Positions 6,909 through 23,025 of a DNA stretch of 64,000 nt are shown one piece after another. Source of the stretch: a virus. The notes under the pieces are model-generated. The model was given only the letters and a program-made list of their open reading frames with translations, did not search any database and was not told where the DNA came from. The DNA lies in IMG/VR virus record IMGVR_UViG_3300021365_000004, positions 81,923-145,922 of that record; one strand, 5' to 3'. Numbering within the stretch: position 1 is the first letter of the stretch; every line of letters begins with the position of its first letter. The position numbers and the translations under genes are program-made.

Positions 6909-6938
6909 AGTATATCAAAAAGCCGATGGCACTGTCAA
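6909..6938 (-). promoter_or_regulatory. Sigma-70-type promoter for the CobS-like gene
   Basis: TTGACA (6933-6938), 18-nt spacer, TATACT (6909-6914). Nearly the same -35 context and spacer (GCTTTTTGATATACT) recurs at 9857-9886, so these are one promoter family. Confidence 0.85.
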
Positions 6939-9603: not shown

Positions 9604-9609
9604 AAGTAT

Positions 9610-9639
9610 ATGCTATCATTAGCTGCATGGCATTGTCAA
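9610..9639 (-). promoter_or_regulatory. Sigma-70-type promoter, -10 box 6 nt from ATG
   Basis: TTGACA (9634-9639), 18-nt spacer, TAGCAT (9610-9615), spacer ATACTT, ATG at 9603. No ribosome-binding site can fit, so the mRNA would be leaderless. Confidence 0.68.
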
Positions 9640-9642
9640 GGC

Positions 9643-9828
9643 CTAGAGCGTAATAAATTTTCTCCTTGATTTAGAGAATTGTTTCATTGGAGATTTGAAG
9701 ATGATTTCTTCTTTGGTTCCAGTCTTGATGTATCCAACTAGTTGTCCAGCATCGTTGACTATGTAAGTATGGTTTGGAACTGTAGACTTCGACTCAGTCC
9801 AGTCCGTAATCTCTTTTAGGTACTTCAT
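9643..9828 (-). CDS. Hypothetical 61-aa protein
   Basis: 61 residues starting MKYLKEITDWTESKSTVPNH. A compact beta-rich core (HTYIVNDAGQLVGYIKTGT) is followed by a basic tail (KSPMKQFSKSRRKFITL). A sigma-70-type promoter (9857-9886) and a purine-rich ribosome site (AAAAGGATGAGGG) precede it, which marks it as an early gene. No family recognised. The tail could bind nucleic acid, by inference only. Confidence 0.75.
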   Translation of the reverse strand: MKYLKEITDWTESKSTVPNHTYIVNDAGQLVGYIKTGTKEEIIFKSPMKQFSKSRRKFITL

Positions 9829-9856
9829 CCCTCATCCTTTTTCATAATATACACAT

Positions 9857-9886
9857 AGTATATCAAAAAGCTTAGGGCATTGTCAA
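9857..9886 (-). promoter_or_regulatory. Sigma-70-type promoter for the 61-aa gene
   Basis: TTGACA (9881-9886), 18-nt spacer, TATACT (9857-9862). The leader of about 20 nt contains a Shine-Dalgarno. Confidence 0.85.
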
Positions 9887-9893
9887 GGCACGA

Positions 9894-20507: not shown

Positions 20508-21305
20508 TTATTTAGGTGTTTTGATATGCCAGAACCTACGGAAGTGAACATAATTTGGTGGTATTGATGCAAACTTAACTGGTTCCATAGGATTCTTAGG
20601 GTGTACATCTTCTAGTGTCCAACTATACACGTCTCTTCTGTAGACTTCGTTAGGTATGATTATACCAAATTCATTATCCAAATCTTCATCATCATATCTT
20701 GTGTAGGTCTTACCTATCTCGTCTAAGTATTCTTCTACATGTGTATCATTAAATGAAGCTTCCCACTGGTCGAACCCATTAAAGACTCTAGAATTTTTCT
20801 TCTTCTTTTCGCCTGGAGCTCCATGTACACCCGACCACTCTTCTTGTCTAAACCATGGTGCTGGCATTGGTAATGAATTGACTGCAGTCTCTAAGAACAT
20901 TTCATCCGTATGATTAAATGCTCTTCTCAAATCATCATAGATGTTTTTAACATGATATAGAGTACCAAAGTGTATAATCAAATCCCACTTTCTATTGAAA
21001 GACCATTCGTCATTATGATTGATACATAACTTTTCTGAGTCTGTTTCTATGGAATCCAGTAGTTCTTGTCTAGCATCTGCATAACTTACAGTTGCACCCA
21101 ACTTCTCAAAGTGTCTACCAATCAATCCATGTGCAGTTCCTAGTTCTAGGATAGTCTTACCATCAAACCAGTCTTCACCTTTACAATCGATAACCTTTTT
21201 AACTCTTGCTTCCGTTGGAAGGTACATTGTGTGTTCGTCATCTGTGATTGGATTCTTCCATTTAAAGAAACCTTCCAACCCCTCACCATACTTAATCATC
21301 TTCAT
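20508..21305 (-). CDS. Class I SAM-dependent methyltransferase
   Basis: 265 residues. The SAM-binding motif I ILELGTAHGLIGRHF (52-66), an acidic motif II region ATVSYADARQE, and the post-core segment LIIHFGTLYHVKN (common in small-molecule/FkbM-type and UbiE-type enzymes) are present. Substrate unknown; the C-terminal half has no DNA-methylase catalytic motif (NPPY/DPPY absent), so DNA modification is unlikely. The late box GATAAATA ends 5 nt before its ATG. Confidence 0.85.
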   Translation of the reverse strand: MKMIKYGEGLEGFFKWKNPITDDEHTMYLPTEARVKKVIDCKGEDWFDGKTILELGTAHGLIGRHFEKLGATVSYADARQELLDSIETDSEKLCINHNDEWSFNRKWDLIIHFGTLYHVKNIYDDLRRAFNHTDEMFLETAVNSLPMPAPWFRQEEWSGVHGAPGEKKKKNSRVFNGFDQWEASFNDTHVEEYLDEIGKTYTRYDDEDLDNEFGIIIPNEVYRRDVYSWTLEDVHPKNPMEPVKFASIPPNYVHFRRFWHIKTPK

Positions 21306-21310
21306 ATACT

Positions 21311-21318
21311 TATTTATC
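21311..21318 (-). promoter_or_regulatory. Late promoter, GATAAATA, 5 nt before ATG
   Basis: Drives the methyltransferase gene; spacer AGTAT. It is separated by only GCG from a plus-strand TATAAATA, forming a head-to-head pair. Confidence 0.65.
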
Positions 21319-21321
21319 GCG

Positions 21322-21329
21322 TATAAATA
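21322..21329 (+). promoter_or_regulatory. Plus-strand late promoter, TATAAATA
   Basis: Exact late box pointing to the non-coding RNA. It is the mirror of the minus-strand box, in the near-palindrome TATTTATCGCGTATAAATA. Confidence 0.5.
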
Positions 21330-21335
21330 TGTGCC

Positions 21336-21365
21336 TTGACAATGGATATCATATTTTGGTATACT
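21336..21365 (+). promoter_or_regulatory. Plus-strand sigma-70 promoter of the non-coding RNA
   Basis: TTGACA (21336-21341), 18-nt spacer, TATACT (21360-21365). The -35 context GCCTTGACAATG is shared with the minus-strand early promoter at 9857-9886, so the same polymerase form should read it. Expected start near 21371-21373. Confidence 0.8.
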
Positions 21366-21371
21366 TGTAAG

Positions 21372-21686
21372 GTAGGAAGTCGAGACGGAAGTTAGATGGT
21401 TGTGAGAGGTTGTTCCGTATAGACAAGGTGTTCCACACTGTTAAAGTCAATTAAGACGTGGCATATAATCGTGAGGTGTGGATAGAATCCGAACAGAGAA
21501 GCACTTGAAATTTCTGACAAATTGGAATGGTGTGGTAAACGAACTTCCGTATGGTCACTACCTATTGACCTTAATAAAATTGGGGTAAGGCCCCACTAGA
21601 AGGACACGGTGTAAAGAATTGGGGTCATACCCAAGACATTGAACGATTCAGTCATGCTAAAAAAAACCCCTCGTGAGAGGGGTTTT
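21372..21686 (+). ncRNA. Structured non-coding RNA, class unknown
   Basis: The only plus-strand unit of the window, in a 415-nt gene-free space. It runs from its promoter to a two-way terminator hairpin, about 315 nt. Pairings I can see: a long-range 9-bp helix ACGGAAGTT (21385-21393) with AACTTCCGT (21542-21550); TCCACAC (21432-21438) with GTGTGGA (21476-21482); CAGAGA (21494-21499) with TTTCTG (21511-21516). Three hairpins follow at the 3' side: GGTCA/TGACC (21553-21569), GGGG/CCCC (21582-21594) and TTGGG/CCCAA (21619-21634). TTCCGT at 21413-21418 competes for the 5' arm of the long helix. No open frame of note. I could not match tmRNA, RNase P, 6S or tRNA. Confidence 0.68.
21659..21686. 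terminator. Two-way terminator between gp23 and the ncRNA
   Basis: Stem CCCCTC/GAGGGG with GTGA loop, flanked by A8 on the left and TTTT on the right. On the minus strand it ends gp23 transcription with eight T; on the plus strand the AAAACCCC/GGGGTTTT stem ends the ncRNA with a weaker T tract. Confidence 0.85.
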
Positions 21687-21720
21687 AGTATTCCAATTAA
21701 GGAATGAGAACCTAAGTTCC

Positions 21721-23025
21721 TTACAGAATGTTAGACACTGCCATCTTTCTGTAGTACTGGTTAGTTCCAGCGGATGCAAGTCCGTCAGCAGGTGTAGCAC
21801 CTACGAATGGATTTGAAACCATACCATATCTAGTTTTGAAACCGATTTTTGGTTGGAATGTGTTCTCACCTACTGCACGAACCATTTGTAATGGAACGTA
21901 TGGGCAATAGAAAAGACCAGCATCATAAGGGTTAGTTCCTCTATAACCTACTGTTAAGTAGTCAACACCAGCATATGGGTCAACATATACTTTAACTCTT
22001 CCGTTTAGAAGACCAGCAAAAGTATTACCAGTATCGTCAACGTTTAAGTTTGTGTTAAGAGCAGGAGTGTAATCTAATACACCTGCCATTGAAAGAGCAG
22101 AAGCTACATCAGATGAACATAGGATAAAGTTACCTTTTCCTCTACGTGTATCTTTAGCGATGAAGTTTGATTCTCTTTCGATTTGGAACAATAATCCTTT
22201 GAATTTCTCAACAGACCATCTACCGTTAGCATCAACGTCTAGGTTGAAAGTACCTGCTGAAGCTGTTGAAGCTGCACCAGTTTTTGCTTGTAAGTTAACA
22301 TTTCTGATAACTTCACGGTTGATTTCTGCAAGAATTTCTGATGAAAGAATATTTGCAAGTTCTGATTCTGCGTCAAGACCGTGGATTGCTTTGAGGTCTT
22401 GTGCAAGTTCGAGTGTGTACTCAGCTTTTAATGCTCTGGATTTAGCAGTGACAGTAGCTTTCTCGATTGAGAATGCCATCTCTGCAAAGTGATTTCCTGC
22501 TCCATCACCTAATGCTTCAGCAGAAGCAGTACTCATACCACCACTTGTAGTGGATGCGTATGAAGGAGATGATGTGTCGAAAGGGTCACCTATTGGGTCT
22601 GAACCTAGTGAAGTACCTGTTCCTTGAGGAGATGCAGAGTAATCAGTTCTTGCTTCGTTATGAAGTGCTTCTGATTTTGCAGCTCTATCGGCGTCAGTAT
22701 CATCGTTATATCTTGCTTTCATAGCAAAGATAAGTCCAGTTGGGCCTGTCATTGGTTGAACACCACAAATGTCGTATGCAACGAGATTTGGCATAGCACG
22801 TCTTACTAATGAAATCAAAATAGGATTCCAGTTTGCAACCGCGCTTCCAGTAGCATTTAAAGGTGCTGCTTCTTCCAAGTTTCCTTGCTCTTCGAAAAGG
22901 GCCTTCTCTTGGTTTTCAAGAATAACAGCAGTAACAGCACGCTTGTAGTTGTCTTCGATTTTTGGTAAATCGGAGTGTTCTAGAATCGGCTCCCACTTTT
23001 CTTGTAAGTTTTCTGATAAAAACAT
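21721..23025 (-). CDS. 23: Major capsid protein gp23
   Basis: 434-residue HK97-fold capsid protein. The start (LQEKWEPILEHSDLPKIEDN) is the typical gp23 propeptide region, removed by gp21. ENQEKALFEE, NWNPILISLVRRAMPNL, YDICGVQPMTGPTGLIFAMK and ESNFIAKDTRRGKGNF are hallmarks of marine gp23. The middle insert is Ser/Gly/Thr-rich. Shine-Dalgarno AAAGGAAAA precedes the ATG; a strong terminator follows. It is smaller than T4 gp23 (521), as in cyanophages and pelagiphages. Confidence 0.97.
   Translation of the reverse strand: MFLSENLQEKWEPILEHSDLPKIEDNYKRAVTAVILENQEKALFEEQGNLEEAAPLNATGSAVANWNPILISLVRRAMPNLVAYDICGVQPMTGPTGLIFAMKARYNDDTDADRAAKSEALHNEARTDYSASPQGTGTSLGSDPIGDPFDTSSPSYASTTSGGMSTASAEALGDGAGNHFAEMAFSIEKATVTAKSRALKAEYTLELAQDLKAIHGLDAESELANILSSEILAEINREVIRNVNLQAKTGAASTASAGTFNLDVDANGRWSVEKFKGLLFQIERESNFIAKDTRRGKGNFILCSSDVASALSMAGVLDYTPALNTNLNVDDTGNTFAGLLNGRVKVYVDPYAGVDYLTVGYRGTNPYDAGLFYCPYVPLQMVRAVGENTFQPKIGFKTRYGMVSNPFVGATPADGLASAGTNQYYRKMAVSNIL

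Follow-up and report, generated by a model that had tools for sequence, protein, structure and literature searches.

The window, which is the whole stretch of DNA analysed here, covers 64 kb at the right-hand end of a phage record of 145.9 kb. It contains an ORF-free gap of 415 nt (21306-21720) between two minus-strand genes. One of them (20508..21305) encodes a methyltransferase, recognised by a domain match to PF13489, and the other (21721..23025) encodes the major capsid protein gp23 (PF07068, E=7.9e-147). On the plus strand of the gap lies a structured RNA with a core of ~280 nt (about 21372..21650), which has homologues in ~148 records. The methyltransferase gene is its upstream neighbour and the gp23 gene is convergent with it. 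A preliminary description, made from the sequence of the window, had reported the gap, an early promoter and a late box on the plus strand, and a terminator usable from both sides. All of these are present.

Transcription signals and coding capacity

The early (sigma70-type) promoter, TTGACA-18-TATACT, is an exact match at 21336..21365 on the plus strand. The general pattern TTGACAN16-19TATAMT has 13 matches in the entire record of 145.9 kb, 12 on the minus strand and one on the plus strand, the latter in front of the structured RNA. A reversed-pattern control gives 0 matches in the same record. Within the window the pattern is found four times (at 6909, 9857, 21336, and 38244) against 0.27 expected. 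Judged by these matches, the predicted promoter is one of the phage's own early class. In subfamily A of the homologues described below, TTGACA-18-TATAMT ends 7-8 nt 5' of the RNA in every copy listed.

A T4-type late box, TATAAATA, stands at 21322..21329 on the plus strand. The window contains 12 exact late boxes against 4.7 expected, and the other 11 are all on the minus strand. It recurs in the copies read from relatives that share the methyltransferase context (e.g. L101), and it was not seen upstream of the other inspected copies of subfamily A. It is thus common only to the window and its close relatives. The preliminary description had read the early and late promoters together as a role throughout infection. 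Because the late box is confined, among the copies inspected, to the window's own subgroup, a conserved early-plus-late role is unsupported.

The terminator (21663..21686, both strands) is a perfect 10-bp stem with T runs on both strands, and would serve the structured RNA on the plus strand and gp23 on the minus strand. It is also found in relatives without the RNA, and therefore belongs to gp23 first.

The open reading frames of the region are short and are not kept between copies, and no frame stays open across copies. The lengths of the core fall into all three classes modulo 3. By these criteria the structured RNA is noncoding.

Homologues and their distribution

Homologues were gathered by scans with gp23, with the methyltransferase, and with a 15-letter seed pattern, followed by further pattern scans. 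The gp23 scan returned close phages, which are without the structured RNA except for L001. The scan with the methyltransferase and the seed returned copies at the same place with 94% identity, two copies that lie among other genes, and one site that is empty. The 15-letter seed alone gave mostly chance matches, together with two true copies (L138 and L133) that opened the family. The structured RNA is now found at 159 loci with one copy each, or about 148 viral records when counted by contig name. The homologues fall into four subfamilies, A-D.

The carriers are T4-like marine phages wherever the marker was checkable. Twelve records, carriers and non-carriers, were searched for gp23, and all 10 in which it was found have a T4-type capsid gene. 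BLASTN searches of INPHARED with the window copy and with copies of B, C, and D gave only short chance matches and no carrier, and no phage in culture was found to have the RNA. No copy was found in the E. coli genomes searched, and a scan of bacterial genomes with a pattern for subfamilies A-C gave nothing. A second pattern scan of bacterial genomes found one contig, L380 (NYUU01000005.1), labelled as a Synechococcus metagenome-assembled genome. It has a D-type copy and genes with phage relatives, and is probably a phage contig misassigned to a bacterium. Two distant matches to model R1, in Melnitz (E=0.08, inside an annotated coding sequence) and in G013 (E=0.07), were judged to be due to chance.

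Conserved fold

The fold was derived from alignment A1, with 54 distinct copies from subfamilies A-C, and alignment A2, with 13 from subfamily D. Of 1,964 cells in A1, taken before any editing, 98.1% pair; 462 cells have double changes, and 27 of the 38 pairs have such changes. When the partners are slid against each other, pairing falls to 46% or less. The covariation score is 0.599, compared with 0.195 in shuffles and 0.107 or less with slid partners. Helix H1 was excluded from the count of 1,964 cells, since the rows of B and C are out of register by one letter at this helix. The register of these rows at H1 was set by hand, and the columns of the pseudoknot, H3, and H4 were untouched by the correction. 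In 12 null simulations that preserve the phylogeny, nine pairs exceed every null value, and they lie in H1, H2, H3, H3a, H4, and the pseudoknot. Covariation in these alignments is very strong evidence for nine predicted helices, including a pseudoknot of 6 bp. Pseudoknotted RNA families with such strong covariation are uncommon.

The 5' hairpin, H1, is formed by 21383 and 21385-21390 with 21413-21418 and 21420 (plus strand, as are all helices here), and closes a GU-rich loop of 22 nt. After the hand correction, 100% of 354 cells are paired, through combinations such as ACGGAA/TTCCGT, AGGACT/AGTCCT, and AGAGCT/AGCTCT, with CTCCTC/GAGGAG in D. Two of its pairs reach a covariation E=0 in the 12 null simulations.

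The H2 domain (21427..21490) consists of an outer helix (21427-28/21489-90), a stem (21432-21438/21476-21482), and an inner stem (21446-48/21460-62). It is 96-99% paired, and most of its pairs have changed on both sides. The most conserved stretch of subfamilies A-C (21440-21465) lies within it. The H2 loop also holds the 5' strand of the pseudoknot (21467..21472), which pairs with a 3' strand in the 3' tail (21643..21648), so that the interaction spans 175 nt. It is paired in 99.7% of 324 cells, as AAUCGU/ACGAUU, GGUAUU/AAUACC, GGUAGU/ACUACU, or GACUGU/ACAGUC. The equivalent in subfamily D is CUCCA/UGGAG, in the same relation and with other letters.

Helix H3 (21501-21505/21529-21533, spanning 21501..21533) encloses an AU-rich inner helix, H3a. 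It is 97% paired, with double changes at all five pairs, and holds the top covarying pair of the whole RNA. Three hairpins follow towards the 3' end, as the preliminary description had proposed, and their pairing is conserved. H4 (21553-57/21566-70, spanning 21553..21570) is 100% paired in A-D, with swaps of CG to GC. H5 (21581-85/21591-95, spanning 21581..21595) has a UAAGG loop and is 100% paired where present; it is missing from subfamily C. H7 (21619-23/21630-34, spanning 21619..21634) is 95.5% paired, and its second pair occurs as UA, AU, or CG. The 3' domain of the RNA is common to all four subfamilies.

This fold differs from the one first drawn for the window. The preliminary description featured a 9-bp long-range helix, with TTCCGT at 21413-21418 as a competitor for its 5' arm and hence two possible folds. 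The complementarity between 21385-21393 and 21542-21550 does exist, but only 73% of its cells pair, with frequent mismatches, and it is contradicted in many copies. TTCCGT is likewise present, but as a strand of H1, and of the two folds only this hairpin is conserved. For the window copy the long helix is favoured thermodynamically, under an energy model that omits tertiary contacts as well as the pseudoknot. Left unconstrained, that copy reaches its minimum energy in a fold other than the conserved one, lower by 13 kcal/mol than the nested part of the conserved fold, from which the pseudoknot is left out. As a candidate for the true fold, this minimum-energy fold is contradicted by the comparison of copies. 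The folding energy of the window copy (z = -2.1) is on its own weak evidence for a structured RNA. Compensatory changes in relatives, which had been named as a way to check the RNA, were found for the other fold. The comparison is thus decisive for an RNA at this place though against its drawn fold, and the earlier proposal is partly confirmed: the predicted RNA gene appears to be real and its fold was misdrawn.

Some copies vary around the common plan. L342 (at about 500-600) and L354 have an extra segment of ~95 nt in the H2 loop, between the 5' strand of H2 and the near-invariant stretch, with the rest intact. An expansion domain or some inserted element could account for it. A copy in L329 (5673-5893, minus strand) is without the H4-H5 region and keeps H1, H2, H3, H7, and the pseudoknot strands; a tRNA-Glu follows it. 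Seven A-type copies (L256, L238, L241, L242, L264, L274, and L250) have an extra 3' tail of ~50-90 nt before the terminator. The tail ends in AAGATGYAGTC and is reminiscent of the S element of group I introns, without an Rfam match.

Gene settings and tRNA linkage

The structured RNA is found in several gene settings. In subfamily A it is convergent with gp23, as had been described for the window, and the genes upstream of it are of at least four kinds, the methyltransferase gene being one of them. That description does not extend to subfamily C, where the RNA is co-directional with gp23 and downstream of it, nor to most of B and D. In subfamily C a tRNA-Asp lies 4 nt before the RNA and an IscU/NifU-like gene after it. 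Copies of D lie between genes for a 2OG-oxygenase-like and a large peptidase-like protein, with a tRNA-Arg or tRNA-Asp 3-11 nt after the RNA. Copies of B are found near a DNA polymerase gene or small genes, and in four cases a tRNA-Glu follows 4-12 nt after the RNA.

A tRNA gene lies within 130 nt of the RNA, mostly at 3-12 nt, in 17 of 18 contexts of C, 13 of 15 of D, 4 of 17 of B, and 0 of 35 of A. For B, C, and D together this amounts to 34 of 50 contexts. Since the tRNA density over all loci is 0.038 per kb, the linkage is far above chance. ARAGORN found complete, separate tRNAs beside the RNA in related loci, and none in the window.

Strong promoters are found in the copies of subfamilies A and D. 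No promoter of their own is recognisable in C and in some copies of B, which would fit release of the RNA from a tRNA precursor. Some promoterless B copies may be transcribed by read-through from the upstream gene.

The variety of settings bears on the idea that the RNA acts in cis, whether by regulating gp23 as an antisense RNA or at its 3' end, or as the leader of a neighbouring tRNA or gene. Such a role is suggested by the position of A and C copies next to gp23 and of B and D copies in front of tRNAs. It is nonetheless improbable, as the orientation and neighbours vary: A is convergent to gp23, C is co-directional, and in G011 and G016 the RNA points away from gp23. The A copies have a predicted promoter of their own and a terminator, and all gene settings share one fold.

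The position beside the capsid gene also raises the question of a packaging RNA, like the pRNA of phage phi29, since gp23 is the direct neighbour of the A and C copies, in one orientation or the other. This is extremely improbable, given that B and D copies are located elsewhere and that phages with nearly identical gp23 do without the RNA.

Two further observations concern the neighbourhoods. The window has a counterpart of the site occupied by the RNA and tRNA in phages of the D type, namely the gap between the 2OG-oxygenase and large peptidase-like genes at 9604-9893. It holds no copy of the RNA; a 61-aa ORF (9643-9828, minus strand) with its own early promoter is found there. Glutamine riboswitch aptamers (RF01739) occur in tandem in L138 (10782-10898, minus strand) and also in L250 (1835-1898, minus strand) and L334 (3070-3191, minus strand), a few hundred bases from the structured RNA in L138 and L250, and ~2 kb from it in L334.

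Gain and loss as a cassette

Close relatives of the window phage show the site without the RNA. In L090-L095 the flanks are those of the window, and a single C replaces the ~338 nt at 21321..21658 (plus strand). In one of these empty sites, L092, the gp23 protein is 99.1% identical and the methyltransferase DNA 92.5% identical to those of the window. Conversely, in L138 the gp23 DNA is 81.8% identical to that of the window, yet the structured RNA is 96.0% identical; in L101 the methyltransferase gene is 83.3% and the RNA 94.3% identical. Empty sites in phages with nearly identical gp23, together with similar RNAs beside more divergent gp23 or methyltransferase genes, indicate that the RNA is quickly gained and lost, and constrained where present.

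In L107-L112 the same site downstream of gp23 is occupied by a gene for a PNKP-type phosphatase, so that different accessory cassettes have settled there. In L107 (4380-5010; also in L109, L111, and L112) this PNKP-like 3'-phosphatase gene (PF25109, E=1e-26) has its own TTGACA promoter and replaces the RNA.

Phage morons are units with their own promoter, on the strand opposite to the surrounding genes, that vary between close relatives and typically code for proteins. The structured RNA resembles them in having its own predicted promoter, in lying on the opposite strand, and in being present or absent among close relatives. The predicted promoter and the empty site are what is expected of an autonomous transcription unit gained and lost in this way. 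Unlike typical morons, which encode proteins, this unit encodes an RNA. Phage accessory cassettes can therefore be RNA genes, here in a position that protein genes occupy in relatives.

Comparison with known RNAs

No Rfam model reaches its gathering threshold anywhere in the window. With the limit relaxed to E=10, the matches that appear are chance-level ones on the terminator and the flanks, and a search over the structured RNA in 24 related loci gave no match. The earlier reading of a single plus-strand structured RNA outside the known families is thus supported, and of the refuting conditions named with it, neither an absence of conserved pairing in relatives nor a clear match to a known family was found. 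The models for RNase P RNA, 6S RNA, SRP RNA, self-splicing introns, and riboswitches do not match over the core. RNase P had been considered because of the motifs ACAGAGA and AGGAAGUC in the RNA; their letters vary among copies, and there is no model match. A group I intron was considered for the AAGATGYAGTC tail, again with no model match.

The possibility of a ribozyme, or of the remnant of a mobile intron-like element, can be raised on other grounds as well. The RNA is gained and lost like a cassette, it has long near-invariant unpaired stretches, and some A copies carry the tail mentioned above. It is very improbable all the same: no intron or ribozyme family in Rfam matches even at E up to 10, the RNA interrupts no genes and occurs once per record, and the neighbouring genes inspected include no recognisable endonuclease or reverse transcriptase.

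Another way to account for the RNA would be as a tmRNA that has diverged very far, or as something that takes over the function of one. A permuted tmRNA, made of two pieces, is known from this phage group (PMC9004378), and such phages often have one. It resembles the structured RNA as a phage-borne stable RNA of the same group of pelagimyophages and methylophages with an early promoter upstream (PMC9004378), but differs from it in sequence and structure. The RNA contains AAACGA followed by a frame of 8-17 codons. The alpha_tmRNA model (RF01849) detects the tmRNA in the positive controls Melnitz, Mosig, and HTVC008M, all three of which are without the structured RNA, and in none of the 26 carrier contigs searched (G000, G009-G012, G016, and G019-G038).

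Against this, tmRNA models give no match over the RNA in the window and related loci, and neither a T-loop nor a CCA-ended acceptor is seen in the core. In the aligned copies, the frame after AAACGA meets an early stop in L341, a stop stands just before AAACGA in L331, and the ends differ. H4 changes its codons freely, and there is no conserved tag frame. The tmRNA of Melnitz is unrelated to the RNA in sequence. Several contigs without the structured RNA also lack a tmRNA, so that the mutual exclusion of the two is weak and only suggestive. Overall, the identity of the RNA with a tmRNA or its stand-in is a most improbable one. The phages with an alpha-type tmRNA (W01, W02, and W03) do not have the structured RNA, a pattern that is suggestive and not significant by itself.

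The closest systems are other large phage RNAs. GOLLD is a phage-borne noncoding RNA from marine metagenomes, often >800 nt long and often near tRNA genes, with a conserved 3' domain (PMC12286853). ROOL is a standalone RNA of phages and prophages near tRNA islands, with pseudoknots, and the solved ROOL RNA has 659 nt (PMC12286853). The function of both is not known, and Rfam includes models for them (PMC12286853). The structured RNA resembles GOLLD in being phage-borne and noncoding, often near tRNA genes, with a conserved 3' domain. It shares with ROOL its standalone occurrence in phages, its link to tRNAs, and its pseudoknot. With ~280 nt it is unlike both, and it is unrelated to them in sequence; it has neither a sequence nor an Rfam match to ROOL, and the GOLLD and ROOL models match neither in the window nor in the 24 related loci. 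A member of these classes would be expected to have ~600-900 nt and many helices, compared with nine helices in this core; the location expected, in phages and often near tRNA genes, is the one found in 34 of the 50 contexts of B, C, and D.

Vibrio phage ICP1 has a large and abundant noncoding RNA, ~800 nt long and not near tRNAs (PMC7567579). Like the structured RNA, which lies in an ORF-free gap, it comes from a gap without ORFs, as an independent noncoding transcript of a lytic phage (PMC7567579). It differs in its length and its distance from tRNAs, and is unrelated to the structured RNA as far as the text of that publication shows.

As a conserved pseudoknotted fold that matches no RNA family on record, the structured RNA is a new viral RNA. 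It is a new family by every test run, and may already stand unnamed among published candidates for phage RNAs. As a kind, namely a phage-borne structured RNA linked to tRNAs, it has relatives in niche and not in descent.

Possible function

The structured RNA is very probably the product of an accessory gene in T4-like marine phages, a noncoding RNA that acts in trans during infection. A trans-acting phage RNA is suggested by the combination of an early promoter, the opposite strand, a conserved compact fold, the linkage to tRNAs, and an accessory distribution. Action early in infection is likely. Host RNA polymerase would transcribe the RNA from the early-type promoter and stop at the terminator that also serves gp23. 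In other lineages the RNA would be co-transcribed with a tRNA, and its ends would be cut out by tRNA processing. The product would fold into a compact, pseudoknotted particle, made up of H1, the H2 domain with its loop locked to the 3' tail, H3, H4, H5, and H7, which would then act in trans.

As to how it acts, the RNA might be a binding platform. The GU-rich loop of H1 and the near-invariant loop of H2 would be offered to a host partner (a ribosome, an RNA-binding protein, or an RNA), which would favour takeover of the host. This can be put forward only tentatively, by analogy. Something of this kind has been suggested for GOLLD and ROOL, also phage RNAs, though it is unproven. Neither a protein partner nor a target of the structured RNA was found.

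The H1 loop also allows for a base-pairing small RNA, in which these 21-22 nt would be the seed for host or phage mRNAs and the remaining fold would be protective. The loop is long and unpaired in the conserved fold, and GGUUG motifs are kept in it in A-D. Still, this is unlikely, as the conserved structure, with its pseudoknot and three 3' hairpins, far exceeds the needs of a seed. The loop differs among A, B/C, and D, and no mRNA target was identified.

In its widest form, the reading as a trans-acting accessory RNA would make this the first of a new class of RNA machines in phages. The class would consist of pseudoknotted, tRNA-linked accessory RNAs, distributed across T4-like marine phages, that influence translation or RNA metabolism of the host at an early stage of infection and perhaps replace the tmRNA missing from all the carriers searched. 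This is possible, with rather less than even confidence. Beside GOLLD and ROOL, the structured RNA is a third type of tRNA-linked phage RNA, and it makes the role of such RNAs directly testable. At ~280 nt it is small enough for structure work, with a mapped fold and compensatory changes in every helix. Natural relatives with an empty site allow comparison, and the carriers are a widespread group of ocean phages.
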